Shown in pieces: positions 2,469 to 20,735 of a stretch of DNA of 22,290 bases. This stretch comes from a virus: positions 1-22,290 of IMG/VR virus record IMGVR_UViG_3300037427_004464. One strand, 5' to 3'. Made by a program: the position numbers and the translations under genes. The notes under the pieces were generated by a model. The model was not told where the DNA came from, did not search any database, and saw only the letters and a list, made by a program, of their open reading frames with translations. How positions within the stretch are numbered: the stretch's first letter is position 1; the number at the start of each line of letters is the position of its first letter.

Positions 2469-5400
2469 CTAAAACCTCTTTATTTCACCGACTAATTGTT
2501 GCAACAGTATTGTACCTTTTAGACCATGCCTGTCATTTGGCCCAACATACATATCAGATGTATTATATCTCATCTTTGGTCTTTCAAGCATGTGAGGCTC
2601 AATAACAAAATTAACTCCTAAGAATTTTGTTCTTCTCGGAATCATCATTTCTACTAAGTTTGCGACTGTTGAGTCAAACCACTTAAAAAATTCAAAGAAG
2701 GTCTTAAAGTTAATTTTATCTGTAAGTCTGTTAAAATATACATCTCTTAGCGCCGCTAAGTCTGGATAGTCATCAGAGAACTGTAGTTCTGGACTCCCTA
2801 TGTAGTTATCAAATGCGTCGAGTGAGGAGAATATGTTTATAATATCTTCATTTAAGGCTTGAACAGCGCTGACTTCGACACTAAATCTTGTGTCGTCTAT
2901 TGGTACTTCGTCTTCTGGTATTGAATGAAGCGGTGCTGGCAAGCCTCCATATTTCTTAAGGTTCTTTTTATCTTTAAAGCTTCTCACTCTAATTCTATTT
3001 GTTGCATTTGCTTGATCAAAAAGTGTTGACAAAGAAGACAGAGTAATTGTGGTTGGCTTAATAACTTGCTTCGAGGCCTCAAAGCCTGAGCCTGTACAAT
3101 GCAAACCATTTTGCGACATGTCATGCAGTGTTATTTTGCCAGCGCTGTCTGATCCTGTAATAGTTTGGATGTAGTCTAAGTCTAGTCTTAGTTTTTCCCA
3201 TGATCCAGAGATTGTTGTTACAAAGTTAAAGTTCTTCTTCGGATCCTCGACTCCTAAAGATGTCGGGTTTAGTATATGTTCTTTTGATTCTTTTGGAGTG
3301 AGAGCTTTTGACCAGAACCTTGTGTTTAATACACGACCACCGAAGAACGTTGTTAAGTCAATATTTGAAACGTCAGCAGAAGAATAGGAAAGACCATAAA
3401 GATTATTGCCTGTTGGAACTGATTGTGAACCTATTAAGAATACAGAGCCAGAGACATTATTGTTATTTGTCTTTGTTGATAAAACACTGTTGTCATTGCC
3501 GGCGGGTGTAGTATCATCAAATAATTTTGTTGTCTCATAATACTCAGCTAAGCGGCCGCCAACTTGCCTTCCGGCGCGCAAGAACCAAGATGAAGATGCA
3601 ATTGATGCAGACATGTCATTTCTAATTCTGCCAAATGCAATATGCCACTCGCCGCCGTCGTAGATGTTGACGCCTGTCAAAGGCATTGCAAACTTTGGTG
3701 CCAGTGTTTTTGACCAAGTATCTCTAAATACCAGTGTCAACGAACCTGTAGTGCTTGTATCATTTGACCCAGAAAATGCTATCAGATTCAAGAACGTACT
3801 GTCAGATAGCGTTGAGGTTGTTGAACCCGAAGTCGAAAATCTTACCAATGAACCGGTCATTGGATGAAAATAGCCAAGAGCAGAGAAGGGTGACATTTGA
3901 TATGTTCCTTCATAAGTCCAAGAACCAGACGTAAGAATTCTATTATGAGCAGCTGTTGGACCTGGCAGAGGTATGCCTGGCTCTTTTCTCCCAGAGGAGT
4001 ATGATGCTGTTGGATAATACGGGCCTAAAAGATTTGATGACTTTAAAAATGGACGATTTGAAGGAATACCTTGAGCGTCTAAAGAGCTACTTATATTTCC
4101 GAAAGATCCAGAAAAATCTAGCATTCTTATGATTTTTGTTCTTGTAGTTCTTCTATCACTTAAGCGACCTGTGCGAGATCCCCCAAACTCCCTAAATCTA
4201 AAGTTATTATCTGGGTTAATACCCATGTTTCTCATAAGCGCCTTGATACTATGAATTGTTCCTTTTGTTCTAAGAATTTCATTCATATCAGACAATATTC
4301 TTCGCCATATCTGATTCTGAATATACTGTAAATTATTCTTTGAAAGAACAGTATCTACTTTGTGACCTTTTCTAGTGTAAAATTGATCTAATGATGTATT
4401 GGGAAAAAGTTCGGGCATTTGAAGTCCGTAAGTTTCCGCCAAGAATGGTATAAATGTGTCTGCGATTGTGCCTTCTGGGACAGGATCGACACTCATTAAG
4501 TTGCCAAAACTGTCTAGATGCATTTTAAGCTCGTCAAAAAACTTAGCCCATACAAATAAGAATGAACCAATGATTTGCGCAGAGCCCAGTTTTCCGCCGC
4601 CTGGGAAGTCTTGACTTACACCGTACCCGTCGGCGGCGTCGCCCAACTCTTTGGTTCCAAACCCTTCGAATATACTCGCTTCTTGAAGATAATGCTTAGG
4701 GATTAACTTTGTAATTAAGTTCGGATTGTTCGCATCATAGTCTGATGCTGATGTTAGCAAGTCTGTATTTAGTGATATTACATCTGGGTACGATGGAAAA
4801 AGTACTGGGCACTCTTCTGTCAGCTCTAAAGGAAGTGGGTGTGTTAGCCCACGAGGCTCTCTAAAGTATGTTTGGAAACCTACTACCTTAGAATGCAAAG
4901 AGTTTCCAGAATAGTCTATTGTTACATCGCTTGATGTATACGATCCCGTAGGTTCATTAAACTTAAAGTATAGTTTTAGTTTTTTGTCCGGATAAACTGA
5001 TTGTTTTCCATGGGCTCTCTGAACACCACCAGTTCTCGGCTTGTGGTATACTTTCAATTCATCAATTGCGCCTGATAGCGTTTGGTCAAATTGTAGTCCG
5101 TCTGCTGTGGGCCCAAAGATGCCCATTGCGTGATTTGATCCGCTCCCAATAAATAAAGAAGAATGTGAGTAGCCAAATGCACCCATTTCGTTTCTAGAAG
5201 ACGATGTTACAAGCTTAAAGTTTCTATAAAGCTTTATCTTGTTTTCGCCCGGGTTTGTATCATATACTGCGCAGATGTGCTGGAAGTCTCCCTTGGATAT
5301 ATCCATGGATGCACTCAAATAAGATGATCCAGATGATACCAGCATTATTAGAGATCCTGAGGCAGCTGCTGCTGTCGTTCCGCTCAGAGCAAGCGTAATA

Positions 5401-6017
5401 CCAGATGACGATCCGCTAAGACGCTGAAATACTACTTGATTGTTAAATTGTGTACTAGCAGGTATATGAAAATGAAAGTCAAATGCAATTGGCTTAGTCC
5501 CCTGGTCTAAAACTGACATTCCATCTGTGGCTCTGGAAAGGGTTGGGGAATAATTACCGGGCTGGTCTTTTACTTCAATATAAGTTCCAGTATCTGTGCC
5601 TCCGTTAGCTTCGGCCGCCCCTGAAAAGTGCAAAAATCCTCTAAATTTTGGAAATTTGTCATAGACCCATTTTTCAAAACCAGTTAGTCGATCAAAAAAC
5701 TCTAAATACTCAGACCGGGATCCGTCGAAAGGAAAACTATTAATGATTACATCAAATGCCGTATTTACTTTTGCTTCTGCTGAATTAAAAAACGTATGAT
5801 TTTCAAACTTATTCCAGTCTATGGAAATTTGCTGAGTTGACTTTATAGGTGAACCGGGTGGGTCGTATCTAAATGATTGTGTCACAGACTGTATTGAGCC
5901 TGTGTGCTGATCTGCAGAAACTTCAAGTACAGGAACAGAGCCTTCTGTCAAGCCTCTAATTACAGTCGGGGTAAATAAACCGGGACCCCCATAAAAAAAG
6001 TTTCCTTTTCTACCCAT
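2469..6017 (-). CDS. Baseplate wedge protein, gpI/gp7-like core flanked by two LamG domains (1182 aa)
   Basis: The ATG overlaps the upstream stop by one base (TAATG), so the two genes are translationally coupled. Residues about 165-330 form a LamG-like domain (GDFQHICAVYD; closing GAIDELKVYHKP). Residues about 515-605 carry a motif typical of P2 gpI and T4 gp7-like wedge proteins: a late-tail-protein segment PFLAETYGLQMPELFP, then IWRRILSDMNEILRTKGT with the Lys-Gly-Thr turn before a helix ending in NMGI. A second LamG-like domain spans about 690-915 (GEWHIAFGRIR; FGGRVLNTRFWSKALTPKE). The C-terminal 180 residues are predicted globular, with FFKWFDSTVANLVEMMIP near 1110-1127. Length is near T4 gp7 (about 1030 aa) and far above P2 gpI (about 180 aa). 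I infer a wedge protein that also displays lectin-like domains. Domain assignments are by eye. Confidence 0.8.
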   Translation of the reverse strand: MGRKGNFFYGGPGLFTPTVIRGLTEGSVPVLEVSADQHTGSIQSVTQSFRYDPPGSPIKSTQQISIDWNKFENHTFFNSAEAKVNTAFDVIINSFPFDGSRSEYLEFFDRLTGFEKWVYDKFPKFRGFLHFSGAAEANGGTDTGTYIEVKDQPGNYSPTLSRATDGMSVLDQGTKPIAFDFHFHIPASTQFNNQVVFQRLSGSSSGITLALSGTTAAAASGSLIMLVSSGSSYLSASMDISKGDFQHICAVYDTNPGENKIKLYRNFKLVTSSSRNEMGAFGYSHSSLFIGSGSNHAMGIFGPTADGLQFDQTLSGAIDELKVYHKPRTGGVQRAHGKQSVYPDKKLKLYFKFNEPTGSYTSSDVTIDYSGNSLHSKVVGFQTYFREPRGLTHPLPLELTEECPVLFPSYPDVISLNTDLLTSASDYDANNPNLITKLIPKHYLQEASIFEGFGTKELGDAADGYGVSQDFPGGGKLGSAQIIGSFLFVWAKFFDELKMHLDSFGNLMSVDPVPEGTIADTFIPFLAETYGLQMPELFPNTSLDQFYTRKGHKVDTVLSKNNLQYIQNQIWRRILSDMNEILRTKGTIHSIKALMRNMGINPDNNFRFREFGGSRTGRLSDRRTTRTKIIRMLDFSGSFGNISSSLDAQGIPSNRPFLKSSNLLGPYYPTASYSSGRKEPGIPLPGPTAAHNRILTSGSWTYEGTYQMSPFSALGYFHPMTGSLVRFSTSGSTTSTLSDSTFLNLIAFSGSNDTSTTGSLTLVFRDTWSKTLAPKFAMPLTGVNIYDGGEWHIAFGRIRNDMSASIASSSWFLRAGRQVGGRLAEYYETTKLFDDTTPAGNDNSVLSTKTNNNNVSGSVFLIGSQSVPTGNNLYGLSYSSADVSNIDLTTFFGGRVLNTRFWSKALTPKESKEHILNPTSLGVEDPKKNFNFVTTISGSWEKLRLDLDYIQTITGSDSAGKITLHDMSQNGLHCTGSGFEASKQVIKPTTITLSSLSTLFDQANATNRIRVRSFKDKKNLKKYGGLPAPLHSIPEDEVPIDDTRFSVEVSAVQALNEDIINIFSSLDAFDNYIGSPELQFSDDYPDLAALRDVYFNRLTDKINFKTFFEFFKWFDSTVANLVEMMIPRRTKFLGVNFVIEPHMLERPKMRYNTSDMYVGPNDRHGLKGTILLQQLVGEIKRF

Positions 6018-7568: not shown

Positions 7569-9416
7569 TCATAGAGCACTTCCAATTATGTCGCTATCAG
7601 GATACTTTAACTCAAATATATTTCCTGGCGGCCCTACTATTATTTTATTTCTAGTTGAAGCGGCGTAGTCAAAATAGAAGTCAGAGTAGCTTCTGTCATT
7701 ATCAACCCCTGTCTTAGGGTTAACTTCTAAGTTTAATAGCGAAACAACACCGGGGGTGTTAATTATAACGTTTGTAATGTCATCTAATAGAATGGGTTGA
7801 TCTATTTGGAAGTTGTCAATCTTCATGATGTCTTTAATTCTAGAAATAACTGTTTGAATTACACCGTTTTTATTTGCCCCGGGTGCGGACATTATTCCAA
7901 ACTTTATTTGGAAGTTAGAAACACTAGCATCTAATATGTCTATCGCATCTGATATCAGCCTGTATTCATTTAAATACGTGCTTAGATTTCTCTTGAGAGC
8001 ATCTGGTGATGTTGTTACCTTGCCGTATCTGTCCCTACTTATTATAAACAGCTCTGCTGAAAGCGGGTTTATCGGATTTGTTCGAATTCCTGCTCTATAA
8101 ACACGACCAAACTCATTTGGCATAGTATATATTCTAGAAAGAAGATCTTGTTTGCTTACAATTCTAGACTGCATTTGTCTAGCACTTGGAATTTTTGTTC
8201 TAAGTTCTTCTAGTGTCGGAGCAGAATCACCTCCTCGGGCCGGATCCAGATTTTTAATTTCAATACTACCTCTAACATAAACAGCATCTGCAGCAGTAGG
8301 TGAATTTTGAAAGTCCATATTGAGATGTTTAATTAGACGTATTGATCCAGCTGCTACATTATGAGATAAACCGCCGCCATATCGATATCGTATCTTTATC
8401 TTTACTCCCTTAGGGCTTATCCCTAGCGTCTGGGTTTTTAATAAAGAGTTCGGGTCTATTGCAAATCTACTAAATGTCTTTTTTCCGTATAGCGGTAAAG
8501 ATAAAGAGCTTGGATCAGGAATTATATCATCATCAAATGTCTCTGCATCACCGGAGCCGAAACGTACAGTAGTCAGTCTAGTAGTTGGGTTGTGACTGGC
8601 AATAAATCTTCTTGGTGCTGATATTACTTCTAAGTTCATTGGGACGTAGTTTCCGTCTTCATCTAAATTCATTACAGCTCTGAATACTGTATCTTGTGAA
8701 AGCGTTTCAGTTTGATAGTATACATTTCCGTCAGAGTCACTAATAGATATTATATCACTTACGTCTGTGTTTAAAAGGCCTATCTCCCGGAAAGGAACAT
8801 GAGCCGTCCCTATATTAAACTCATCAACAGTTTCATTTCCTGAAACACACAGGCCTTGTAATGACATTACATATGAGGATGGATTCCCGGCATCATTTTT
8901 TTCAAAAATTGTTAAGTTGGCTGTATAGTTTCCTTCTTCGTCTTTTGCAGTAAAGTCCAAGTCTTCTATAAGGTTAAAGTTGACTCCGGTTGCAGATGTG
9001 CTTACTGTTCCATTTCTTATGACTGGCAAAGCAGTCTTTTTAGGGCCAAATGTCCCATCATTATTTTGTTCAGCAGGAATCTTAAGATAAAACTTCACAT
9101 TAACAGACGAAGGCGATGATCCAACTACGTCTACACCAACCATTCGGAGGTGCCTTAGAATATTTTTTCTCTCAACAGCAGTTAAGGGATTTAGTTCTGT
9201 AAATTGGTGATCAAGATAATATGATAACGAGTCGCCGACATACGACGCCATATCTAAAAACAGGCCACCCATTGAAGCCTCAGAGAAATCTTTTATCTTG
9301 TCGGGAAAATAAATTCTTGCATATGAAAGTAATTCCGCTCTAAATGATTCAAAATCTTTTGCAAGAAATGTTCTAGATCTTGACTTCTTTATCTTATTCT
9401 TAACATCAATTGACAT
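7569..9416 (-). CDS. gp6: Baseplate wedge protein, T4 gp6 / P2 gpJ-like
   Basis: At 615 residues the protein is close to T4 gp6 (660 aa) and longer than P2 gpJ (about 300 aa). The N-terminus shows the family hallmark: FESFRAELLSYARIYFP, then SMGGLFLDMASYVGDSLSYYLD and LTAVERKNILRHLRMVG, the helical segment with which gp6/gpJ proteins begin. The C-terminal third contains a gpJ-like repeat region (SRIYTMPNEFGRVYRAGI; ending with a NTPGVVSLLNLEVNP segment), as in proteins forming the inner ring of the baseplate. In T4, gp6 dimers with gp7 and gp53 make the wedge core and drive sheath contraction. It sits 6 nt after gp25 and before the two large virion genes. The ribosome site is weak (GGGTAG, overlapping the gp25 stop), which suggests coupling to gp25 translation. 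Confidence 0.9.
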   Translation of the reverse strand: MSIDVKNKIKKSRSRTFLAKDFESFRAELLSYARIYFPDKIKDFSEASMGGLFLDMASYVGDSLSYYLDHQFTELNPLTAVERKNILRHLRMVGVDVVGSSPSSVNVKFYLKIPAEQNNDGTFGPKKTALPVIRNGTVSTSATGVNFNLIEDLDFTAKDEEGNYTANLTIFEKNDAGNPSSYVMSLQGLCVSGNETVDEFNIGTAHVPFREIGLLNTDVSDIISISDSDGNVYYQTETLSQDTVFRAVMNLDEDGNYVPMNLEVISAPRRFIASHNPTTRLTTVRFGSGDAETFDDDIIPDPSSLSLPLYGKKTFSRFAIDPNSLLKTQTLGISPKGVKIKIRYRYGGGLSHNVAAGSIRLIKHLNMDFQNSPTAADAVYVRGSIEIKNLDPARGGDSAPTLEELRTKIPSARQMQSRIVSKQDLLSRIYTMPNEFGRVYRAGIRTNPINPLSAELFIISRDRYGKVTTSPDALKRNLSTYLNEYRLISDAIDILDASVSNFQIKFGIMSAPGANKNGVIQTVISRIKDIMKIDNFQIDQPILLDDITNVIINTPGVVSLLNLEVNPKTGVDNDRSYSDFYFDYAASTRNKIIVGPPGNIFELKYPDSDIIGSAL

Positions 9417-9422
9417 ATTGTT

Positions 9423-9914
9423 CTACCCAGCTGAAAATATTATTGCTTCTAAAAGGCGTTCTTTGTTGTCTAGTTTACCCACTCTATAACCTATTCTTAC
9501 GCCTACTTTTGCAACATGCTCATTGTCAAATCTTTCGATCAATGGCTCAAAAGTTAGAAGTGTAATAAATGGCATGTACTTTCTAGTCGTTGTTCTAATT
9601 CTTCTAATAGCTTCTGTATCTGCAGTTTCAGATCCAATATTAAAAGCCAACTCTGTTAAATTTGCGCCAAAATCAGGAAGACCTAAACGCTCTCCATGAT
9701 TTGTCATGACCATGTTTCTAAAATTATCTGCTAATTGTTCAGCATAGTCATAGTGCATTGAAAATAATCCGTCAGCGGCGTTTCCAAATGACATTGGAAC
9801 CTTTATTCCAATTGGGTGTGTTTGACGTTCAGTGATAGCTTTAACTTTTCTATCTTTGATGTCTTCTGTTAATTCACCAACTGATGCAAAATCATATTTT
9901 TTACGAATAGACAT
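9423..9914 (-). CDS. gp25: Baseplate wedge protein, T4 gp25 / P2 gpW-like
   Basis: A 163-residue protein of the gp25-like family, which has a lysozyme-like fold without lysozyme activity and joins the wedge to the first sheath disc. The visible hallmarks are NFRNMVMTNHGERLGLPDFG (the family's G-x-R-x-x-x-P-x-x-G segment, about 65-84), TELAFN, a helix EAIRRIRTTTRKYMP, and FEPLIERF (about 122-129), which corresponds to the conserved E-P-R strand. The first 45 residues are an extension relative to the usual 110-130 aa core. The gene follows the longest gap of the window (70 nt), suggesting a separate translational or transcriptional start, but I saw no clear promoter there. It is followed after 6 nt by the gp6-like gene, the same W-J order as in P2. 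Confidence 0.9.
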   Translation of the reverse strand: MSIRKKYDFASVGELTEDIKDRKVKAITERQTHPIGIKVPMSFGNAADGLFSMHYDYAEQLADNFRNMVMTNHGERLGLPDFGANLTELAFNIGSETADTEAIRRIRTTTRKYMPFITLLTFEPLIERFDNEHVAKVGVRIGYRVGKLDNKERLLEAIIFSAG

Positions 9915-9984: not shown

Positions 9985-10461
9985 TCATTTAAGTTTTCCC
10001 CATAATTTACCTGAAATGGGGTTTGGTGCTGCATGATGGATAGCAATTATAGGTATGATTGTGGCGCCAGCAGCGACCGGTCGAATTGGAGGTATACCTA
10101 TAGTTTCACATACTACTCCAGGAGCTGCAATTGATTGCACTTGTGTGATATCAACCCACGCATTCATAAAATAATCATGGATTGCAGTTCCTAAAGCCTC
10201 ACCTAATGCCTCTACAATAGGATCGGCAGCGGCGGAGCTTTGGTCCCCAGCGCCATTAGAGGTGCTGTGGGCTGTGTCTTTCGCTATTTTAAGCGCAGCT
10301 TTTATAGCTTCCTTCAAAGGACCTTCAGCTACTTTAAGACTGGCACCGGATGGACCTGCAGGATCTGGTGTTGTAAATGCACTTATGACTGAGTCTGCAG
10401 CTGATCCTGCTGCATTAGCCACATCCATTACGAGACTGCCCTCGTCGCTTTCATCCGACAT
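9985..10461 (-). CDS. Small virion protein A, paralogue of the next gene; possible spike-tip (PAAR-like) protein
   Basis: A 158-residue protein with a strong AGGAGG ribosome site 5 nt before the ATG. The first 50 residues are acidic then Ala/Ser-rich and absent from the paralogue at 10492-10815. Residues about 50-100 match that paralogue closely: 16 identical residues (60-75, AKDTAHSTSNGAGDQS), then ADPI-E-LG-A-G-AIH-Y-M. The last 45 residues are a Gly/Pro/Ile-rich beta segment (APGVVCETIGIPPIRPVAAG). Position between spike and gp25 is where contractile-tail phages often carry a PAAR tip protein, and the small Gly-rich C-terminus fits this loosely. However, no canonical Pro-Ala-Ala-Arg motif or zinc-binding Cys/His set is present, so the function is inferred from context only. 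Confidence 0.7.
   Translation of the reverse strand: MSDESDEGSLVMDVANAAGSAADSVISAFTTPDPAGPSGASLKVAEGPLKEAIKAALKIAKDTAHSTSNGAGDQSSAAADPIVEALGEALGTAIHDYFMNAWVDITQVQSIAAPGVVCETIGIPPIRPVAAGATIIPIIAIHHAAPNPISGKLWGKLK
10237..10284 (-). repeat. Near-identical 48-bp block, copy 1 (in small virion protein A)
   Basis: This block encodes residues 60-75 of protein A. It matches 10708-10755 at 44 of 48 positions. All four differences lie in third codon positions and are silent, so both copies encode the same 16 residues. It lies at the centre of a paralogous pair whose flanks are much more diverged. Confidence 0.9.
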
Positions 10462-10491
10462 TTTTTCCTCCTATAGTTTTTCTATTGCATA

Positions 10492-10815
10492 TCACTGCAA
10501 TTTTCCGAAGCCGGCATGAACAGTAATAATTGGCATCACTGTAGAACCTATATGAACTACAGGTGAGCCGGCTGTTAAAACCATCACTCCGGGGGCTTGA
10601 GTTGAAACAACAGGACCGATATTAACATCAGCTTTCATCGCATATTTGTGTATTGCGGCCCCTATAGCATTTCCTAATGTTTCTATAATAGGATCAGCCG
10701 CTTCGGCACTTTGGTCACCAGCCCCATTAGAGGTGCTGTGAGCTGTGTCTTTCGCTGCTTTGTATGCTGCTTTAATGTCTGCTTTAAGATCGATAACAGC
10801 TAATGCTAGTGGCAT
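10492..10815 (-). CDS. Small virion protein B, paralogue of protein A; possible spike-tip (PAAR-like) protein
   Basis: A 107-residue protein 9 nt after the spike gene, with AGGAG 6 nt before the ATG. It is the short form of the 158-residue neighbour: an N-terminal helix, the shared AKDTAHSTSNGAGDQS block (residues 21-36), an ADPI-E-LG-A-G-AIH-Y-M helix, then a C-terminal beta-rich segment APGVMVLTAGSPVVHIGST ending in GFGKLQ, where the paralogue ends GKLWGKLK. The common plan (helix plus Gly-rich beta tail) suggests that both occupy similar sites, perhaps trimer-binding at the spike or hub. Position directly downstream of the spike is the main argument. There is no canonical PAAR motif. Confidence is high that this is a real gene and low for the function. 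Confidence 0.7.
   Translation of the reverse strand: MPLALAVIDLKADIKAAYKAAKDTAHSTSNGAGDQSAEAADPIIETLGNAIGAAIHKYAMKADVNIGPVVSTQAPGVMVLTAGSPVVHIGSTVMPIITVHAGFGKLQ
10708..10755 (-). repeat. Near-identical 48-bp block, copy 2 (in small virion protein B)
   Basis: This is the partner of the block at 10237-10284, about 470 bp away in direct orientation, encoding residues 21-36 of protein B. It points to a tandem gene duplication with a section kept similar by recent conversion or strong constraint. Confidence 0.9.
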
Positions 10816-10824: not shown

Positions 10825-12522
10825 CTATTCTCCGAATATTCTAGATGACTTTATACTTGGTATTTGTCCAATTCGGTCAGTCAAGTCTGCGTTAAGACGG
10901 GTAGCCGCATTATTTATTTGAAGCGCTGGTGCGCCGTACCCTGGTGTGCTATGAGTCAACACCTTAGTACAAAACTTCTGGATGTCTTCCATTATATTTG
11001 TTAAAAGTGTTTGTAGATCTGAGTATCTTACATAGGGCTCGGACGATGACTCCCCGGGGCCATGGCCTTGGCCGGCTTGGCCTATATAAATTTTTGATCC
11101 TGTTAGCTGTACAATCCCGTCAGGCAAAAGATATATTGATGCCTGATCTTCATTAACTGTACCTTCTTTTATAATTCTAATACTACCGTTTACTTCGTCT
11201 CTTTCATCATCTTTTCTTGCAACGATCCTTATTTCATCTGATTTCATTATAATAAAAGGACTCTCTTCAATATCCGCTAAGCCTTCACCTTCAAATTCTG
11301 GATTAATAGAGGCATGCTCAATATTGAAATTATAGTCACCATTAGTCCTCATTGAGACATAAATTCTACTACAGTCTGAGAGGAAGTCTGGGTCTCCTTC
11401 CATCGGCCTATCCATTCTATTTAACAAAACATTCTTTCTTTTAGAATCTTCTGCATAAGCAGCAGGATTTTTATCTACCTCTAGCTTTTCTCTAGTATTA
11501 ACAATAACGCGAGGTTGTGTGTCCTTTAGATCTCCATCCGGATCGGCCTTGGATGCTTCGTAAAATCGGCCGCGGCCGGAGACAATGTCAATTGTACCAC
11601 AATATTCTGGTATGGGGTCAGTAGCTGCGCCGCTAGAGTCTATAGCAGAATACGCATTACTATATTCAGATCCGTCTGGGCGTTTGTCGGCATTCCAACC
11701 CCTGTCTTGACCTAAACAAATAAGTGTATTGTTTGACCCTTGCAAGACAAAGTCGCCTGGGCGCTTGGTAAACCTGGGGACGGGCTCCATTGTAAATGAC
11801 TGCATAGCAAGGGAGCCTGTATATATCTGATCATATACAGACGGCGGTGCTTCTTCAGGATTCGCTGGTGGGTTTGCCTCAGCCTCATCATTGACAATAC
11901 CCTCCTCTTCATCTGGTGACGCATCGGGAGGCTTAGCAATAAAAGCTGGAGGTCCTGGATTTTCTTCTGCCTCTTTTTTGCCGGTGAATGGCGCAGTTTC
12001 TTCGCCGGTTTCTCCGTCGCCTTCGGCAGAGCTTAATTGGTGTGATCTTATTTTGTCAATATAGAGGTCGTGTCGTCGCTCAGGATGTGTGTAGTTGATA
12101 TCATCAGCATGATCCGGCTCATGAACTCTACAAAGCCAATATTGGTGAGGGGATGGTCCACCGGGGGCTTCATTAAACACCCAGACCTGCTCACCTGGCT
12201 TGACAGGCATAGACATATGAGGAGGAAAAAACGGATAGCAAAGTGTATTAGATGCGGATGCAGCTGCCCCGGGACCTGCGACTGTTCTCACAATAATACT
12301 GTTTCTTGGGGCCTTCTTTAAGGATGCTAAACCAGGACCACCAAGCTGCCTTGCCAGCCTATTAATTTCGGCCGGCATTCTCCACTCTACAGAATTTAAA
12401 ACTTCGTGGACTACCGCTCTAGATAAAGGGCCGGCTGCGGGACCTGCTGCTGCGGCTGCTGACGCTGCTGCTCCTACATCTCCGCCGGCGCCGGAGGCTG
12501 CATCTCTTGATGGATCTGCCAT
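10825..12522 (-). CDS. Baseplate central spike/hub protein (gp5 / gpV-like, OB-fold N-terminal)
   Basis: A 565-residue protein. Residues 8-35 are a low-complexity Ala/Gly/Pro run. Residues about 40-160 look like the OB-fold spike domain of gpV/gp5 proteins: SIIVRTVAGPG, then PFFPPHMSMPVKPGEQVWVF and QYWLCRVHEPDHADDINYTHP, the pattern of a beta-barrel with a P-V-K-P-G-E-x-V turn. An acidic, Pro-rich linker (about 165-230) follows, then a large middle domain (MEPVPRFTKRPGDFVLQGSN; DRGWNADKRPDG). The last 100 residues include a short beta stretch (SIYLLPDGIVQLTGSKIYIG) like the start of a gp5-type beta-helix, and a helical end. No lysozyme domain is visible, unlike T4 gp5. A GGAGAG site precedes the ATG. 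The gene starts the P2-like V-W-J-I gene series. Confidence 0.8.
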   Translation of the reverse strand: MADPSRDAASGAGGDVGAAASAAAAAGPAAGPLSRAVVHEVLNSVEWRMPAEINRLARQLGGPGLASLKKAPRNSIIVRTVAGPGAAASASNTLCYPFFPPHMSMPVKPGEQVWVFNEAPGGPSPHQYWLCRVHEPDHADDINYTHPERRHDLYIDKIRSHQLSSAEGDGETGEETAPFTGKKEAEENPGPPAFIAKPPDASPDEEEGIVNDEAEANPPANPEEAPPSVYDQIYTGSLAMQSFTMEPVPRFTKRPGDFVLQGSNNTLICLGQDRGWNADKRPDGSEYSNAYSAIDSSGAATDPIPEYCGTIDIVSGRGRFYEASKADPDGDLKDTQPRVIVNTREKLEVDKNPAAYAEDSKRKNVLLNRMDRPMEGDPDFLSDCSRIYVSMRTNGDYNFNIEHASINPEFEGEGLADIEESPFIIMKSDEIRIVARKDDERDEVNGSIRIIKEGTVNEDQASIYLLPDGIVQLTGSKIYIGQAGQGHGPGESSSEPYVRYSDLQTLLTNIMEDIQKFCTKVLTHSTPGYGAPALQINNAATRLNADLTDRIGQIPSIKSSRIFGE

Positions 12523-12524: not shown

Positions 12525-12893
12525 CTACTCTCCACTGATGGACGCGAAGACATCGTCTGGATTGATCTTTGCTTCTTTTTCCTCTGCTTTACTTATAAGC
12601 TCAGCCAACCTTAAGATTTGCTCATTTGACTTACACATTCTCTCAAGATATTTTGTTAAAGTAGGGCCCAATGTTGCATGCTCACCGGTGCCGCCAGACA
12701 TTCTTGACCACGCATCTGTAAAAAGCATTCCTGCATTTTCCCTATCAGTTAACGCATTTTGATAAATTTCTTTCCAAAGAACTTTTTTCTTTTCTTCGGT
12801 AGAATTAAGCTGATCGAGGATATCAGAAAAAGAATCAACCTTACCTTTCAAGGCTGTCGCTTTATCCATCTCTGTTTCTAATTTGTTAGACAT
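12525..12893 (-). CDS. Small coiled-coil protein of unknown function
   Basis: 122 residues, starting 17 nt after the sigma factor stop with AGGAT 8 nt before the ATG, and ending 2 nt before the spike ATG. The sequence is strongly helical and charged: heptad-like stretches at about 10-45 (DILDQLNSTEEKKKVLWKEIY) and about 83-108 (KYLERMCKSNEQILRLAELI), with a short Gly-rich turn (SGGTGEHATLG, about 66-76) between them. This suggests a helical hairpin that could oligomerise. No membrane segment, Cys pairs or enzymatic motif is visible. Placement between a late sigma factor and the spike gene allows either a transcription accessory role (no gp33-like sequence is recognisable) or a tail assembly or chaperone role. 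I do not recognise the family. Confidence 0.7.
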   Translation of the reverse strand: MSNKLETEMDKATALKGKVDSFSDILDQLNSTEEKKKVLWKEIYQNALTDRENAGMLFTDAWSRMSGGTGEHATLGPTLTKYLERMCKSNEQILRLAELISKAEEKEAKINPDDVFASISGE

Positions 12894-13954: not shown

Positions 13955-15121
13955 TTACATTAACTCACCTAAATGTAAATCATACAACTCTTTAATTGAC
14001 TCCCATGAATATTCATTTTTTAGTGTGGATGATAAATCACTTGCCCATCTTTGAGGCATGTGCGGCTTTTCATAAAACTTTCTAAACTTTCGTTTAGCGT
14101 CTTTTTCTTTTACATTTGCCCATCTAGAACCCTTAATAAAAACAGATCCGTCGACTCGGCTAGGGTGGATTTCTTCTAGATTATAGTCTACAACAATATA
14201 TCTTCCGCGGCCCATAAAGTCTGTGTGACCTGACCACCCTGTGGCTATGACTGGTACATTACTTGCAGCAGCTTCTAGAATCGGCAACCCAAAACCTTCA
14301 CCTCTAGTTAGTGTCACCAGAGCCTTTACAGAATCATTTCTATAAAGGCTTACCATATCATCATTTGTCATCTTTCCATGCAACAGATGTACTCTGGGGT
14401 ACTTTCCAGGCCTAACCGTTTTTAACAGGTCGTTCAAAAACTTTTGAGTCACCATTTTATCAATTTTTGTAGCCTTGCCTGAATTTGTCTTAAGAATGAT
14501 TCCTACATCTGGATCATCCTTGAATTCTTCGCATAGCCACTTAACAGTATAGAAGAGATTTTTTCTATCATTTTCAGGATTATTGCCTGTCAGCTGTCCG
14601 AAAACTAAAAAATTAAACTTAGTGGAAAATTCATGGTCAAGGGCAGGAATGCTTTCATCTAAAACCTCGTCATAAAAAGACTCAGGTATTACAATTATAG
14701 GCACCTTAATATTTCCGGTGTTTTCTAATGTCTTCTTAGTAAAAGTTGTAGGTACAACAATTGCTGACATTCTATTACATGCGTCTACCCATTGAGGGTT
14801 ACATCGATCTGTTTCTACACACGCTGTGACGCCAATGTTAATGTTAGCTAAATTTGGGTCCCACTCATTTGGAAGCTGTACCTGAATTGACATATCAAAT
14901 CTTGGGTGCCCTGCGCGCATGTCTACAGTCTTGTTCATAATCTTTCCAACTAGACCGTCTTCGCCGTCGCTATTAATAAACCACGGTGTTATTCCCCAGG
15001 GGGTGGCCTGAATCTTAACGTCCCATCCGTCCTTTTGCAAAGCCCATCTTGCAATCTGCCTTGAATGAACCCCGTAACCAGAGAGTGTTAAAAATGGACC
15101 TCTTAGTAAAACATTTTTCAT
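13955..15121 (-). CDS. Glycosyltransferase, GT-B fold (GT4-like), second of a pair
   Basis: A 388-residue protein starting 1 nt after the previous glycosyltransferase stop, with AGGA 8 nt before the ATG. The N-terminal domain begins LLRGPFLTLSGYGVHSRQIA, a Gly-rich acceptor-side loop after the first strand. The C-terminal domain has the GT4 signature EGFGLPILEAAASNVPVIAT (about 275-294), whose first Glu and E283 would bind the nucleotide sugar ribose and phosphates, followed by WSGHTDF. A ligand-loop motif N-x-x-x-D-R-K-N at about 180-188 precedes the second Rossmann domain. There is no membrane segment, so it is a soluble enzyme. The donor and acceptor cannot be read. With its neighbour it could build a disaccharide or modify successive acceptor sites. 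Context (next to sugar nucleotide genes on one side and virion genes on the other) allows host glycan or virion protein acceptors. Confidence 0.9.
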   Translation of the reverse strand: MKNVLLRGPFLTLSGYGVHSRQIARWALQKDGWDVKIQATPWGITPWFINSDGEDGLVGKIMNKTVDMRAGHPRFDMSIQVQLPNEWDPNLANINIGVTACVETDRCNPQWVDACNRMSAIVVPTTFTKKTLENTGNIKVPIIVIPESFYDEVLDESIPALDHEFSTKFNFLVFGQLTGNNPENDRKNLFYTVKWLCEEFKDDPDVGIILKTNSGKATKIDKMVTQKFLNDLLKTVRPGKYPRVHLLHGKMTNDDMVSLYRNDSVKALVTLTRGEGFGLPILEAAASNVPVIATGWSGHTDFMGRGRYIVVDYNLEEIHPSRVDGSVFIKGSRWANVKEKDAKRKFRKFYEKPHMPQRWASDLSSTLKNEYSWESIKELYDLHLGELM

Positions 15122-15122
15122 T

Positions 15123-16379
15123 TTAAAATTCCTTTATTGACCATGGTTTGTATCTTTTTTCCCAGTTTTCAATTAGCTCTAAAAGAGACTCATCCCATTG
15201 ATCAACTGTGTCTTTTAATGCAAACTCAGACTGGACATAGCTCCTGGCTTTATTCCCCAAGGCTTCTCTTTCTTCTTTTGGCATTTCATACAGCTTCATT
15301 AGAGCGTCAGCAGTTTGTTGTGCTGAGCAATAGTCTTCATAGATATAAGGTACCTGTTGCGATCCTACTAGTGTTTGATGAGTCACATCTAATGCCACAC
15401 CATTTTCTGAATCGTCTCTATGGTCAACAACCTGCCTTGTAAGACCACCTGTCTTAAGCGCAATAATTGGCTTTCCGCATTGCATTGCTTCTAATGTTGC
15501 TAATCCGAAACCCTCTGCGTAAGAAATATTGATACAAACATCAGAAATATTATGAAGAATGTTCATCTTTTCAAAGTCTATTCTTTCTGGAGAAAAGACA
15601 ACAGAGTCAGAAATTCCTAGCATCTCTGAGGTGGCATATAGATTAGGTCCTTCAGAGTCGTCTGGTTGGGTATGCATTAAAAGTGTTATATCTTTTTTGC
15701 CATACTTTTCTTCGACCATTTTTGCAAATAAGCTCCAGCCCCAAAGTAGATCATTTGGGCGTTTTCTTTTAGCATTTCTATTTACCCAGAAAGTTACAAA
15801 GTGATCTTTTCTATCTTCACCTAAAAGTTGAAGCCTTGCATTCTTGACTAAGCTTTTATCTTCTATTGGGTGATATATTTCTTCCGGGAGGGCATGAGGA
15901 ATAAAATTGGTTCTTCCGGGGGCTAGATCTTTTACATAGCTATACGTCATATGGGAGTGACAATTAATGAGGTCAGTTGAATCGTAAAGAACTCTATTGA
16001 ACTCAGGTACCGGTAGATTATCCCACACATGCCAATAAGCAATTGGACATATTTGGTGAATTTCGTCTTCCATTTCCCAAAGCCATATGAAGAATCTTGG
16101 GTCTGTAAAGATAAATAGTATGTCAGGTTTTTCTGTTGCTAGCGTCTGGCGAAGCATGTCTGGACTTCCAAAACCGTCAACTGGCTTAATGACAAAATCT
16201 TCACTAACTTGAACTACATCATAATTTTCATGCTTAATTGCAGCTCCGAACTGTCTAACAGACCAATGACCCTTTGCAATCAGGCCGTCTATTAAAAACC
16301 TACTTTGAACCGCGACTCCGGAAGTGCTCAAAGCATGGTCGGACAACATTAGAATTTTGTACTTCTTTTTTTTACTCAT
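15123..16379 (-). CDS. Glycosyltransferase, GT-B fold (GT4-like), first of a pair
   Basis: A 418-residue protein with a Rossmann N-terminal start (KYKILMLSDHALSTSGVAVQ), a mid-protein WVNRNAKRKRPNDLLWGW segment (about 198-215) in the place where GT4 enzymes carry the R/K pair contacting the donor diphosphate, and the GT4 signature EGFGLATLEAMQCGKPIIAL (289-308) followed by KTGG. It has no membrane helix. It is preceded by a 52-nt gap with a candidate sigma70-like promoter and followed by the second glycosyltransferase after 1 nt. A purine-rich GAGAGAGA run lies just before the ATG and probably serves as the ribosome site. Sequence similarity to its neighbour is limited to the general GT4 plan, so the two probably add different sugars or act on different acceptors. 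Confidence 0.9.
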   Translation of the reverse strand: MSKKKKYKILMLSDHALSTSGVAVQSRFLIDGLIAKGHWSVRQFGAAIKHENYDVVQVSEDFVIKPVDGFGSPDMLRQTLATEKPDILFIFTDPRFFIWLWEMEDEIHQICPIAYWHVWDNLPVPEFNRVLYDSTDLINCHSHMTYSYVKDLAPGRTNFIPHALPEEIYHPIEDKSLVKNARLQLLGEDRKDHFVTFWVNRNAKRKRPNDLLWGWSLFAKMVEEKYGKKDITLLMHTQPDDSEGPNLYATSEMLGISDSVVFSPERIDFEKMNILHNISDVCINISYAEGFGLATLEAMQCGKPIIALKTGGLTRQVVDHRDDSENGVALDVTHQTLVGSQQVPYIYEDYCSAQQTADALMKLYEMPKEEREALGNKARSYVQSEFALKDTVDQWDESLLELIENWEKRYKPWSIKEF

Positions 16380-16399
16380 ATCTCTCTCTTATAAAAATA

Positions 16400-16427
16400 A
16401 TCATATCAATATTATGAAAACCGTAAA
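16400..16427 (-). promoter_or_regulatory. Candidate sigma70-like promoter for the glycosyltransferase pair
   Basis: On the minus strand, TTTACG (-35, 4 of 6 consensus) and TATGAT (-10, 5 of 6) are separated by 16 bp in the gap after the nuclease gene. The predicted start gives a short leader with a GAGAGAGA site before the ATG. This gap is AT-rich, so a chance match is possible. Confidence 0.45.
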
Positions 16428-16431
16428 TGAA

Positions 16432-17271
16432 TCATGTACAGTGCTCTGTGTCCTTATAGGGGCAGTATGTACAGGAATTTCTATTCTTTAGGTTGAATTG
16501 TTTCTTTACCATTTTGATCATGCTTCGCATAATTTTTAATGCTCTTTCCATTGACTTCGGGCCGGCTGAAACAGTAACCAACTCACACATATTTCCTGGC
16601 TTTCCACCTCTTTTCAAAAGAATAAAGCCACAATTAATATCTTTTAGCGGAATATTGTGCTTTCTAGACCAGAAGTGCTTATAAAGAATTAGCTGAGCTG
16701 TCATTAAAATATCTTGTTTCTTGCTTCTTCGCCACCCATAAGACTGTGATGTTTTCCAGTCTAAGATCCAATATTTTGTTCCAGTGCCTCTAGTTTTAGG
16801 TACTTTAATGACAGCATCGATAAATCCTTTAAACTTTACGTCAGAATTTTCGATCTCTTCGTATAGCTCTTCCTCAGCCTTTACTGTCTCCCAACCGGGA
16901 AATGTTTCGTCTAAAAAGGTTGGAACATCATCCCACATATTTGATGCCCACTCACACCACTCTTCAACAGGTGCGTGTTTGTACCAACCAGGCATTTTTT
17001 CATACCACTCAGGCTCACCAAAGCCATGCTTGTCCCACGCATCTGTAACGTCTTTTAAGATTTTTTCTCGATCAACAGTTCTTGTTTCTAGAAGTGATTC
17101 ACACCCTTCGTGAACAGCTGTCCCAAAATCTAAAAAAGGTGAAGGTTCAAATACGTCAATTTTATCAACATGCATAAGCTTGTGCCTATAAGAGCACTCT
17201 TTCCAGCACTTGATTTCAGAAAATGATACGTGTGATTTGCCAGTAGGCATTGTTGGTTTTGTATTAATCAT
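16432..17271 (-). CDS. Cas4/AddB-like PD-(D/E)XK nuclease with predicted Fe-S cluster
   Basis: A 279-residue protein of the RecB-like PD-(D/E)XK nuclease family. Visible motifs in order: SFSEIKCWKECSYRHKLM (Cys26), GTAVHE with His54, an E-rich strand AEEELYEE near 132-139, GFIDAV with catalytic Asp152, and WILDWKTS with Asp171 and Lys173. Four cysteines (C26, then C267, C270 and C278 in CTYCPYKDTEHC) have the N-terminal plus C-terminal spacing seen for the 4Fe-4S cluster of Cas4 and AddB. It is a stand-alone nuclease with no helicase or CRISPR gene beside it. Likely a phage exonuclease in recombination, replication or DNA processing. The gene sits oddly among sugar genes and has its own promoter. 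The start at 17271 lies at the predicted transcription start, so translation would be leaderless; the next ATG is at codon 8. Confidence 0.85.
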   Translation of the reverse strand: MINTKPTMPTGKSHVSFSEIKCWKECSYRHKLMHVDKIDVFEPSPFLDFGTAVHEGCESLLETRTVDREKILKDVTDAWDKHGFGEPEWYEKMPGWYKHAPVEEWCEWASNMWDDVPTFLDETFPGWETVKAEEELYEEIENSDVKFKGFIDAVIKVPKTRGTGTKYWILDWKTSQSYGWRRSKKQDILMTAQLILYKHFWSRKHNIPLKDINCGFILLKRGGKPGNMCELVTVSAGPKSMERALKIMRSMIKMVKKQFNLKNRNSCTYCPYKDTEHCT

Positions 17272-17277
17272 AAAGAT

Positions 17278-17306
17278 ATTATACCCGGTCCGTAAAGAAT
17301 ATTCAA
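17278..17306 (-). promoter_or_regulatory. Sigma70-like promoter; predicts leaderless nuclease mRNA
   Basis: In the 48-nt gap before the nuclease, TTGAAT (-35) and a perfect TATAAT (-10) are spaced exactly 17 bp apart. Six bases separate the -10 from the ATG, so +1 would be the A of the start codon itself. No Shine-Dalgarno sequence is seen. Confidence 0.7.
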
Positions 17307-17319
17307 TTCTACAGGCTCA

Positions 17320-18183
17320 TTATTGTGTTTTTAAAAAATCAGCCACATATTGTCTCAAAGACGACTCAGGTTTCCAGCCAGTAGAATCTTTTGTCTGTTT
17401 GATATCAGCTAGAGTTTCTTTGGCTTCACCGGGGCGAGAAGGTATGTATTCTATGTTTTCAGGGCTGAACATGTTTGCCAGCTCATTAATAGAGTAGTTT
17501 TTTCCAGTCCCTAGATTAAAAACATTACCAGCATAATTCCCCTCAGATAACGCGCAGAGTCCAGAAACGATATCAGATACATGAGTAAAGTCTCTTCTCT
17601 GCTCTCCAGTTCCCGTAATTGTTATTGATTCTCCACGAATTGTCTGGCCTTCAAATACACCTACAACAGTTGCGTATGGTCCAGAAATTGGTTGTCGAGG
17701 GCCGTAGACATTAAAAAATCTTGCAATTACTGTGCTTACATCGTATACCTTGCTGTACATTTCGCATAGCTGTTCACCTGTATATTTTGCAAATGCATAC
17801 GGATTTAACATAGGGCCGCCATACGCGGACGACGATCCTGCATAAACTAATTTTGCGCCGGCGCGACGGGTGTACTCTAGTACTTCTGAAGTGCCCATGG
17901 CGTCGATGGAAAAATATTTTGTCGGGTCTTTGAAACTCGGCTGTATTCTTGCCAGAGCTGCCAAATGAAAAACAGTATCAAAACTTGAACCTTCTACGTA
18001 CTTTGCTGAATTGATGTTTCTTATGTCGTCAATCCAGTACGTGACTCCGTCGATCATATTGTCTCTAGAGCTGCTCTCAGAAATTAAGTTATCAATTACT
18101 GTAACATCATTGCCATTTTTAAAAAGCAGCTCTACTAAATGTGAACCTACAAATCCAAGGCCACCTGTTACTAAAATATTCAC
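17320..18183 (-). CDS. Extended SDR NAD-dependent sugar epimerase/dehydratase
   Basis: A 287-residue GalE-like extended short-chain dehydrogenase. It starts with GTG (AGGA 6 nt upstream), 1 nt after the dehydrogenase stop. The NAD site is LVTGGLGFVGSHL (residues 4-16), with VIDNL ending strand 2; the active-site Ser lies in GSSSAYG (116-122), and the catalytic Tyr129 and Lys133 in YAFAK. ARFFNVYGPRQ follows at about 154-164 and RDFTHVSDIV near 197. Usually 18-25 residues lie between the SSS-x-YG strand and the Tyr; here only about 8 do, so a substrate-facing loop is missing. The product is likely a 4-epimerised or dehydrated nucleotide sugar. With the UDP-sugar dehydrogenase gene just upstream, a UDP-hexuronate step (for example UDP-GlcA to UDP-GalA) is the simplest guess. 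Substrate is not shown by sequence. Confidence 0.9.
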   Translation of the reverse strand: MNILVTGGLGFVGSHLVELLFKNGNDVTVIDNLISESSSRDNMIDGVTYWIDDIRNINSAKYVEGSSFDTVFHLAALARIQPSFKDPTKYFSIDAMGTSEVLEYTRRAGAKLVYAGSSSAYGGPMLNPYAFAKYTGEQLCEMYSKVYDVSTVIARFFNVYGPRQPISGPYATVVGVFEGQTIRGESITITGTGEQRRDFTHVSDIVSGLCALSEGNYAGNVFNLGTGKNYSINELANMFSPENIEYIPSRPGEAKETLADIKQTKDSTGWKPESSLRQYVADFLKTQ

Positions 18184-18184
18184 T

Positions 18185-19039
18185 TTAATCCTCGCTAACT
18201 GCCCGGCCTTTCATAGCCTCCCAGTCTCTATTTTTTCTTACCATATCATTTTTTTCTTGAACAGACTTTAATATTGTTGAGTCTACACTAGAGTTTTCAG
18301 CAATATAAACCATAGCGCTCAAGTCTTTTGGAAAGCAGTGGCCGCCAAAACCAAGATCTCCGTCTGGACCGGGAACAGCAAAATGACTTCGACCTAGTCT
18401 AGTATCATGCAAAGCATACTCAGTTACCTTGTCGTAATCAATTGAATTTGCCTGGCATATTTGATATATTTCGTTTGAAAACGATACCTTTGTTGCTAAA
18501 AAACAATTAGTAAAATACTTTACCATTTCTGCTGTTCCGGAGCCGGTCTTAACAATTGGTATTTCAGGAAAAGCCTTTTTAAACATTGTCTTGACAATTG
18601 TCGTCGCAGGCCGGGTTCCCCCTAGAATAATTCTAGTTTGATTTTTAAAATCCTCATAAGAATTTGCCTCTGTTAAAAACTCAGGACTAAAAATTACATC
18701 AATATTGTTGAATTTATTATCTAGTAACTTTGTAGTTCCTGGTGGGACTGTTGATTTTATTACAACAATTCTTCTTTTTTCATTTGAAAAACTATTTAAA
18801 CATATCTTGTCAATATTATGAAGAGAATTCTCAACAATTCTAATGTCACACTCACCTGATTTTTTCATTGGTGTCGGCAAACATTGAAATATAATCTCAG
18901 AAGTCTCAATTAGACTATATAAAGAGTCACAATTACTTTTGCTTTTATCTAGATCGTATGTCTTTATATCATAAAATGTTTTAAGGCCTTCGTAGATAGC
19001 AGACCCTACAAAACCCTGTCCTACAATTCCAATTTTCAT
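18185..19039 (-). CDS. UDP-glucose/GDP-mannose dehydrogenase family, C-terminally short
   Basis: A 284-residue protein. It has the Rossmann motif GIVGQGFVGSAI (4-15), the TVPPGTT segment (97-103), a SPEFLTEANS loop (118-127) typical of UDP-glucose dehydrogenases, AEMVKYFTNCF with Lys174 and Asn178, and catalytic Cys235 in FGGHCFPKD. All catalytic parts of the NAD-binding and central domains are present. The usual length is 390-450 residues, and the whole UDP-binding C-terminal domain is missing; the frame ends cleanly 1 nt before the SDR start, so there is no sign of a frameshift. Likely converts a UDP-sugar to a UDP-uronate, or a variant substrate. The ATG follows the carbamoyltransferase TAA directly. 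Whether the short form is active alone, or needs a partner to close the site, is open. Confidence 0.85.
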   Translation of the reverse strand: MKIGIVGQGFVGSAIYEGLKTFYDIKTYDLDKSKSNCDSLYSLIETSEIIFQCLPTPMKKSGECDIRIVENSLHNIDKICLNSFSNEKRRIVVIKSTVPPGTTKLLDNKFNNIDVIFSPEFLTEANSYEDFKNQTRIILGGTRPATTIVKTMFKKAFPEIPIVKTGSGTAEMVKYFTNCFLATKVSFSNEIYQICQANSIDYDKVTEYALHDTRLGRSHFAVPGPDGDLGFGGHCFPKDLSAMVYIAENSSVDSTILKSVQEKNDMVRKNRDWEAMKGRAVSED

Positions 19040-20674
19040 TTACTTTTTCTCTCCGCTTCTAGTTAATATAATGTTGTATTCTGGAAAGAAAAGGTGATCT
19101 ATTTGTGTTCCAAGAAAACACCTAATTGCATGCTCTGCATTTTCACAAATAGGCTCTCTATCATTAAAACTTGTATTTAGAATAATTGGGACACCTGAAG
19201 CTTTCTTCCATCTGGTTAAAAAGTCATAATACCACTCGTTGTCTTTCTTGCTAACAGTTTGCAGCCTTGCAGTACCATCTTTGTGAACTACAGCGGGTAC
19301 TAGATCTTTTTTATCTTCTTTAAATTTAAGAACATATTGCATGTACGGACTTTCTTGGGTTCTTTCAAACCATTCTGGTACATCTTCTAGCAATATTGAT
19401 GGGGCAAAAGGCCTGAACCAGACTCGATGTTTTACCTTTTCATTGATTGTATCTTTCATCTCAGCTCTTCGTGGGTCTACAAGAATAGATCTATTTCCCA
19501 AAGCACGACGTCCAGATTCTGAAGATCCGTTAAATACAGATACTATTTTTCCGTCTAAAAGTTTAGTAATTAAGTCATCAACAGAAGACTCTTCAACAGA
19601 TAGTTCAGAACTAAATGCCTCTATTGTTCTATCAATATGTTCCTTAGGCCACACTTCACCCAAATAAGGCGTAAAATTATCTTCCCACTTAACTCTAGGG
19701 TTGCCGAGTGTTTCGTGCCATAAAATTTGTGCGGCGCCAATTGCTAAACCTCCGTCATAAGGGACAGGAGGAATATATACACCTTCTAGTCTATCATCAA
19801 ACTTGTCTAGTACTTTACCCATACAGACAGAATTTAAAGTTACACCGCCTGATAGACATAAATGTTTGTAGTCGGGAAGCTGGTCTAGACACTGCTGCAC
19901 AATACTGAATATTACTTCTTCAGTGGCTTTTTGTAGCCCTGCAGCTAGATCAAATTTGTCTTGTTCAGACTTATCTGCAATTACAGACCAGGGATTTAGA
20001 TACGGATGTGTTGGATCTTTTCCTTCAACATATGCACCCTTAGGTTGTGTGGGTGGCTTAAACCCAGCCTGAATGATGTCTTTTGTTAGCATTTTGAGAA
20101 AGTCTTCGTAATACTTCATTGGGTCGCCAAAAGCAGCCATGGCCATTATTGTACCTTCTTGTCCTCCAAGAGGCCAGCCATTTTGAAGCTTGAATACATA
20201 CCTTGTGATTCTAGTCCAAACACCACCGATATTCAACTGTGAGGGGTGAAATGACTGGAGTCGCTCCATTGTGTTATCATTGCCAACCCATACCGTAGCG
20301 GCTGTTTCAATGCCTTCATCTGACTCAACACCACCGCCATCCAGTGTTATAACAATTGATTTGTCAAAATTACTAGAATAAAATGCATTTGCTGCATGCG
20401 CATGATGATGAGAATAATATGTAATTTCGCTGCCGGCCTGAGCTTCTAGCTTTCCATAAGACTCATATTCTTTAAGCTTTCTAGCTGGGTAAACAGAAGC
20501 AAAGTGCGTAATTTCTTTGGCACCTTCGTATCTATCATACATAAATTCAGCAGCATCACCTGGTGGTGACTTTTCTCTGTTGTATCTTTCATACTCAGCA
20601 TGTACCAGCGGCTTTCCGTCCTCTAGTACACAAAAAGAGCAGTCGTGGCCGGCCCATAGTCCTGCGATTTTCAT
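19040..20674 (-). CDS. O-carbamoyltransferase, NodU/TobZ/CmcH family
   Basis: A 544-residue protein, close to the family's usual 550-600 aa. The N-terminal half is a Kae1-like ATP-dependent domain: GLWAGHDCSFCVLEDG (5-20), a metal-binding H-x-x-x-H pair (His89, His93 in SHHHAHAANAF), TLDGGGVESDE (110-120), and LCLSGGVTLN near 272. The C-terminal carbamoyltransferase domain has GSSESGRRALGNRSILVDPR (about 375-395), FRPFAPSIL and LNTSFNDREPICENAEHAI. The family uses carbamoyl phosphate and ATP to form carbamoyl-adenylate and transfers the carbamoyl group to a sugar or other hydroxyl. The usual G-P-R-A-L-G reads G-R-R-A-L-G here. An extended -10 promoter and a GAGAGG site precede it. Known relatives decorate Nod factors, antibiotics and LPS heptose; the acceptor here is not shown. 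Confidence 0.9.
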   Translation of the reverse strand: MKIAGLWAGHDCSFCVLEDGKPLVHAEYERYNREKSPPGDAAEFMYDRYEGAKEITHFASVYPARKLKEYESYGKLEAQAGSEITYYSHHHAHAANAFYSSNFDKSIVITLDGGGVESDEGIETAATVWVGNDNTMERLQSFHPSQLNIGGVWTRITRYVFKLQNGWPLGGQEGTIMAMAAFGDPMKYYEDFLKMLTKDIIQAGFKPPTQPKGAYVEGKDPTHPYLNPWSVIADKSEQDKFDLAAGLQKATEEVIFSIVQQCLDQLPDYKHLCLSGGVTLNSVCMGKVLDKFDDRLEGVYIPPVPYDGGLAIGAAQILWHETLGNPRVKWEDNFTPYLGEVWPKEHIDRTIEAFSSELSVEESSVDDLITKLLDGKIVSVFNGSSESGRRALGNRSILVDPRRAEMKDTINEKVKHRVWFRPFAPSILLEDVPEWFERTQESPYMQYVLKFKEDKKDLVPAVVHKDGTARLQTVSKKDNEWYYDFLTRWKKASGVPIILNTSFNDREPICENAEHAIRCFLGTQIDHLFFPEYNIILTRSGEKK

Positions 20675-20699
20675 TTATTTTTTCCTCTCATTACTAACA

Positions 20700-20727
20700 A
20701 TTATATCAGCTATGATCCTGTTGTTAT
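20700..20727 (-). promoter_or_regulatory. Extended -10 sigma70-like promoter for the carbamoyltransferase unit
   Basis: In the 61-nt gap, ATAACA (-35, 4 of 6) lies 16 bp before a perfect TATAAT, which is preceded by TG at the extended -10 position (TGATATAAT). The leader of about 18 nt contains GAGAGGA before the ATG. Confidence 0.6.
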
Positions 20728-20735
20728 TCATCAAT

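Follow-up and report, generated by a model that had tools for sequence, protein, structure and literature searches.

Introduction

The tips of contractile tails are variable and are poorly annotated outside model phages. In T4, gp5.4 is described as capping the spike, with one gp5.4 per spike trimer (PMC7600766), and its small gene lies between the spike gene and gp6 in the order 5, 5.1, segC, 5.3, 5.4, 6. A second described type is the iron-loaded spike apex of P2 and phi92, which carries an HxH motif in the C-terminal part; this motif is reported for Milano gp27 (PMC10811340).

Here, we analyzed two likewise small genes, A and B, that lie in tandem between a spike-like gene and a gp25-like gene in the window, a stretch of 22,290 bases that constitutes an entire IMG/VR virus record of a phage known from metagenome sequence alone. 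We compared the pair with its relatives, examined a short block of near-identical DNA within it, and asked whether the same region is matched in other phages that carry several copies.

Results

Gene order around the A/B pair

The genes around A and B lie on the minus strand, in the strand order spike-like, B, A, gp25-like, and gp6/J-like (Table 1), and both open reading frames are present where the initial annotation had placed them. The gap from the stop codon of the spike-like gene to B is nine bases, that from B to A is thirty bases, and AGGAGG precedes the ATG of gene A. In addition to the matches in Table 1, a profile of the gp6/J-like protein (A2) matches PDB 9f4a, "Baseplate wedge protein gp6", with an E value of 4.4e-7.

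Table 1. Features of the window, with coordinates counted from its first base
Feature	Coordinates	Strand	Description
Protein with Laminin_G_3 (concanavalin-like lectin) domain	2469..6017	-	1182 aa; Pfam E 5.1e-10; adjoins baseplate genes
gp6/J-like baseplate wedge protein	7569..9416	-	615 aa; phrog_219 E 5.2e-11; TIGR02243 E 2.7e-16 (below cut-off)
gp25-like baseplate wedge protein	9423..9914	-	163 aa; Pfam GPW_gp25 E 1.3e-4 (below curated cut-off); phrog_43 E 1.4e-4
Gene A, slot protein copy 2	9985..10461	-	158 aa; longer tail, ending in GKLWGKLK
Direct repeat, first and second unit	10115..10314, 10586..10785		200 nt, ungapped, 71%
Shared 48-bp block in A	10237..10284	-	residues 60-75; 44/48 bases identical to the block in B
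Gene B, slot protein copy 1	10492..10815	-	107 aa; directly 3' of the spike-like gene; tail ending in HAGFGKLQ; matches the lone slot gene of L087-L092 and L107 (sister contigs) in position and length class
Shared 48-bp block in B	10708..10755	-	residues 21-36; end of helix 1 and interhelix loop
Spike-like protein (gp5/VgrG position)	10825..12522	-	565 aa; C-terminus KSSRIFGE (C-terminal region 10825-10900); putative label
Small conserved protein	12525..12893	-	upstream of the spike-like gene
Sugar/glycan gene cluster	13955..22160	-	Pfam; adjoins tail genes

Several other features of the window surround this module. The sugar/glycan cluster, a putative phage-borne nucleotide-sugar set, contains two glycosyltransferase-1 genes, an NAD epimerase, a UDP-glucose/GDP-mannose dehydrogenase, a carbamoyltransferase, a cupin, and a pfkB-type kinase, and a PD-(D/E)XK nuclease sits inside it (Pfam). 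The protein with the Laminin_G_3 domain is a candidate receptor-binding or wedge protein. The small protein upstream of the spike-like gene has counterparts in many relatives (for example, at 2882-3256 in L006 and 3926-4324 in L011); these share the pattern LWKEIYENA..DR ... KYLERM.KSN.Q...LAE and have no known family at a convincing E value.

A and B are paralogs that arose by a lineage-specific duplication

The A and B proteins align across approximately 100 residues with a score of 261, compared with a mean of 34.7 and a maximum of 59 in 1000 shuffles. Outside the block, 46/91 residues and 159/273 bases are identical, and the direct repeat listed in Table 1 spans most of the gene. The pair is thus paralogous over nearly all of B, and the earlier statement that the two proteins differ strongly outside the block has to be withdrawn. 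The real differences lie in the C-terminal tails and in an N-terminal extension of approximately 40 residues that is unique to A and is followed by a helix-loop-helix core as in B. In searches of Pfam, PHROG, and NCBIfam, A and B returned weak unrelated names or none, with no Pfam family at E up to 1, and a PDB profile search returned nothing convincing.

The gp6 tree places the window next to a sister group of eight contigs (L086-L092 and L107; SH-aLRT 100). One family gene is found in 7/7 of the sister contigs with a visible slot; L086 is truncated ahead of it. Exactly one family match is present anywhere in each of the longer records of L088, L089, L090, L102, and L144; this search covered ten records, seven of which have a match, and the L185 record has three. 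Domain trees, in which many forks are open, were built from 86 columns, or 68 without the loop, and A and B are sisters in them with a support of 98 for all columns and 89, not starred, without the loop columns. Because A and B group together in the domain trees and the sister contigs carry one copy, the duplication is lineage-specific. The initial annotation had suggested a duplication and had named an independent origin of the two genes as its refutation; in the relatives, the origin is not independent. Collectively, judged from the trees and the copy counts, a small variable baseplate gene was duplicated in tandem within the lineage of the window, giving A and B.

A slot family with one to three copies

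Relatives were reached only via gp6 profiles. Neither B nor the A/B alignment by itself retrieved any from viral_contigs, B alone found none in phage records, and a single-sequence scan with gp6 found none. Three scans with gp6 profiles were used, taking the best 80 of 598, 512, and 119 confirmed matches. With tblastn in named phages, gp6 relatives appear in 17 records; B, the spike-like protein of the window, and the slot and spike-like proteins of relatives found none there. The order spike-like, slot gene(s), gp25, and gp6 recurs among the contigs found with the gp6 profiles. Three MAG-assigned contigs, L174, L175, and L176 (305,838 bases, labelled Methylococcaceae MAG), carry the same phage baseplate module, so they may represent phage DNA placed in bacterial bins.

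A slot-protein profile was built from 22 members, A and B included, and counted over all loci. Among the loci from the best-80 gp6 scans, 244 have gp25 and 145 of these also have a spike-like gene; the domain is carried by 92/145. After removal of contigs with the same gp6 core, 96 contigs with spike-like and gp25 genes remained. The domain is present in 57 of these 96 contigs distinct by gp6, as one copy in 43, two in 7, and three in 7 (L177 is scored as two and really has three, one copy having been missed by the slot filter; L178 has the same slot length), and 39 are without a detected domain. The comparison across relatives that had been proposed for the A/B pair thus gives one, two, or three copies per slot.

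Other, often larger, proteins occupy the slot in the 39 domain-free contigs. Larger, unrelated-looking proteins are also seen in the slots of L094-L098, L112-L125, and L015/L016/L027. An internal stretch of the slot protein of L112-L125 matches the helix-loop-helix profile, so that larger tip proteins may contain the domain. An enzymatic slot product was considered on the basis of one record's "putative chitinase" and rejected, as nine slot proteins including that one match no Pfam family at E up to 0.01.

A and B themselves both lie between the spike-like gene and gp25 and match the family profile with 66 and 82 bits, respectively, both being members of its seed alignment (A5); with phmmer, B matches L007 (E 1.6e-13). 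The B model and the model of the fused relative L177 both show two helices followed by beta segments. A and B therefore belong to an uncharacterised family with a helix-loop-helix and a beta-tail that occupies the variable slot between the spike-like gene and gp25.

Beyond the window, multi-copy slots are found in L099/L103/L104/L209, in L111/L126, and in L142, L155, L157, L177, L183, L185, L187, and L189; in the last eight, two domains are fused in one protein. Tandem or fused multiplication thus occurred in at least three lineages besides that of the window. This repeated multiplication, together with the loop matching described below, is more interesting than the single duplication in the window.

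Structure models of the slot protein

The single-chain model of B is of middling quality (mean pLDDT 69.7, pTM 0.49). It contains helices at residues 3-28 and 37-61 and beta segments at residues 63-73 and 96-105. The model of the two-domain relative from L177 is better (pLDDT 76.6, pTM 0.66) and repeats the helix-helix-beta order twice. Foldseek searches of the PDB with the B model and the fused L177 model gave no match at E <= 0.001. With VIA-align, the best match (Z 7.2, rmsd 1.8, 52 residues) is an unrelated helical protein, which we took as a common arrangement. The best structural match of B is A0A7S9XGR0 in BFVD, an uncharacterized protein of Virus NIOZ-UU157 (92 aa, probability 1.00, 18% identity), with a Foldseek E value of 0.015, which is above 0.001.

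The spike-like neighbour

The spike-like label of the gene upstream of B is putative and comes mostly from synteny, and the gene order around it is conserved in relatives. Searches with this protein in Pfam, PHROG, NCBIfam, and PDB gave no match, and there is a weak local match to the beta-helix region of T4 gp5 (probability 7%). With hhalign, it matches the corresponding gene of Microcystis phage Mel-JY01, Flavobacterium phage immuto, and one uncultured phage (E 4.7e-6, probability 86%) over the last ~120 aligned columns.

The C-termini of the spike-like proteins of the window and its relatives fall into distinct types (KS.RIFGE, ..KTK, and ..KVLVK), which tend to follow the content of the next slot. 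An end of the form FGE/YGE/FGD is found in 42/57 contigs with the slot domain versus 7/39 without it (Fisher 9e-8, kinship not corrected). This association fits a contact between the slot protein and the end of the spike.

A 48-bp block with shared codons

The 16 residues AKDTAHSTSNGAGDQS are common to A and B and are encoded by the block listed in Table 1; as first annotated, all four base differences between its two copies are silent. Given 62/107 identical columns, a run of 16 identical residues arose in 304 of 100,000 column shuffles, and the best 16-codon window (44/48) was reached in 13 of 20,000 codon-column shuffles. At the block, the window copies share an insertion of approximately 8 residues relative to the sister contigs; the long loop and the block are absent from the single-copy sisters L087-L092 and L107. 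The longest identical tract between A and B is 17 nt.

Silent differences number 4/16 in the block versus 24/44 outside it (Fisher P 0.077), a contrast that is by itself only suggestive. Because a simple reading of these sites would over-claim conversion, we applied codon-usage and scan tests. When gp6 codon usage is taken to predict synonymous choices made independently, 12/16 codons are shared in the block versus 6.2 expected (P 0.0025), whereas the other identical residues share 20/44 versus 16.4 expected (P 0.16), and codons outside the block look saturated. Furthermore, an unbiased scan was run, the block not being preselected, at window sizes of 10, 16, and 24 columns, with codon usage drawn from five genes of the window. 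The best window falls on the block at every size, with scan-corrected P values of 0.018, 0.024, and 0.021, respectively.

The initial annotation had offered gene conversion as one explanation and had named codon divergence of the block elsewhere as a refutation; the block is instead less codon-diverged than the rest. Since the scan P is ~0.02 at the block, local gene conversion is moderately supported, also by an identical tract in the contig L185 (see below), and is not proven. A local tract of shared DNA history in A and B is, from these codon patterns, likely but not certain.

The loop is matched within genomes in some other multi-copy phages

If copies are older than the split between genomes, the similarity of copy 1 to copy 2 should not be higher within a genome than across genomes. 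In the three-copy clade (8 genomes with 3 domain classes, the first copy being used in 6), the cross-copy similarity of the loop is 0.410 within genomes versus 0.302 between genomes (4/5000 permutations); for the same copy between genomes, it is 0.308. The corresponding counts are 65 of 5000 permutations for helix 1, 4255 for helix 2, and 915 for the tail. Because the loop similarity had been noticed before the permutation test, the analysis was repeated as a blind window scan. The best windows coincide with the loop or with helix 1 and the loop (scan P 0.0025; range 0.0015-0.003). When one genome was left out at a time, the scan P was 0.001-0.006 for six genomes, 0.027 without L185, and 0.081 without L187; it was 0.093 without both L185 and L177. 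The two-gene group L099/L103/L104/L209 (4 genomes with 2 copies) shows the same direction without significance (loop 432/5000, scan P 0.123), and L111/L126 were left out of the permutation tests because they comprise only two genomes. The suggestion of a constrained element is thus strengthened, as an independent three-copy clade keeps the same loop, and not the tails, matched within genomes.

In L185, a 284-kb record, two tandem slot genes share a 38-nt identical tract (2647-2684 and 2904-2941) that runs from helix 1 into the loop, and their products differ in the tails; in seven other loci, the identical tract is 8-14 nt. The loops of L187 and L183 show no codon excess, and those of L187 match as protein and not in codons; therefore, conversion is not general. 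Collectively, both conversion and protein-level selection seem to act on the loop.

Discussion

We consider it fairly probable that A and B are spike-associated adaptor subunits that co-assemble, with a shared loop for a common partner that is homogenised by conversion and selection while the tails diverge; the physical association itself is putative. In this mechanism, the helix-loop-helix end of the slot product would dock on the spike/hub assembly, and more than one subunit would co-assemble: A with B in the window, and three domains in certain relatives. Selection, together with short gene conversion events now and then, would keep the partner-contacting loop matched within one phage, and the beta/glycine-rich tails, which may face outward, would diverge. 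The loop is likely to be a shared docking surface. A heteromeric A/B tip, which the initial annotation had raised, is a plausible hypothesis because two copies are joined in a single protein in related phages. For the accompanying idea that the copies alternate in virions, no evidence was found, and these natural two-domain fusions speak against it.

The loop could instead carry no functional meaning, the block being the relic of one recent conversion tract between neighbours. Codon sharing that exceeds the usage expectation in the block and equals it elsewhere is in line with such a relic, as is the 38-nt tract in L185. However, other genomes with several copies show matching at this structural position too, and L187 does so with no sharing of codons; random tracts should also hit the tails and helix 2, where the three-copy clade shows no excess. 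We regard this purely mechanistic origin as unlikely.

Purifying selection alone, acting on a loop that is needed by a common partner and was never converted, with silent sites there not yet saturated, is a decidedly unlikely account. It agrees with the nonsignificant direct silent-site contrast and with the protein-level matching without codon sharing in L187. However, silent sites elsewhere are at expectation, so the shared codons of the block need another cause, and the sisters L087-L092 and L107 are without the long loop, which is therefore not constrained across the family. A constraint on nucleic acid, in which the 48 bp would act as a signal in DNA or RNA, with the matching protein residues as a by-product, would suit the high base identity and few silent changes but is highly improbable, as back-translation of the 10-residue core of the block yields 0 matches in viral_contigs, the single-copy sisters lack the block, and the L187 loop matches in protein without base matching.

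The reading as co-assembling adaptor subunits with a conversion- and selection-matched loop can be extended. Contractile-tail phages might possess an expandable adaptor set of one to three copies, in tandem or fused, in which the loop is matched since all copies dock on the same site, and which forms a hetero-oligomeric tip with position- or partner-specific tails; we put this forward tentatively. A family that multiplies in one slot with the loop matched and the tail varied may provide a handle on docking versus outward-facing residues. Moreover, loop matching within genomes is a sequence-only test for co-assembly. In literature searches on gene conversion and baseplate, concerted evolution and phage tail, spike tip helical hairpin, and tandem or paralog baseplate, the pattern was not found among the titles and abstract starts listed, and it may still be in print.

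Among described proteins, PHROG 5576, a group of small phage proteins, is matched by L099 (E 2.9e-5) and L132 (E 1.1e-4), both of which belong to the slot family; A and B themselves are not among its matches at E up to 1, and a literature search on its name found nothing. The H-x-H motif of the iron-loaded apex is absent from the translations of A and B. No PAAR match was found in A, B, or ten relatives, and the family profile (A5) has no similarity to T4 gp5.4 (probability 0.04%). The slot occupies a position similar to that of gene 5.4 in T4, and in its proposed place at the end of the spike, the A/B family would resemble T4 gp5.4, a PAAR-type tip. In contrast to gp5.4, it has a helical hairpin core, and it occurs in two or three copies in some phages.
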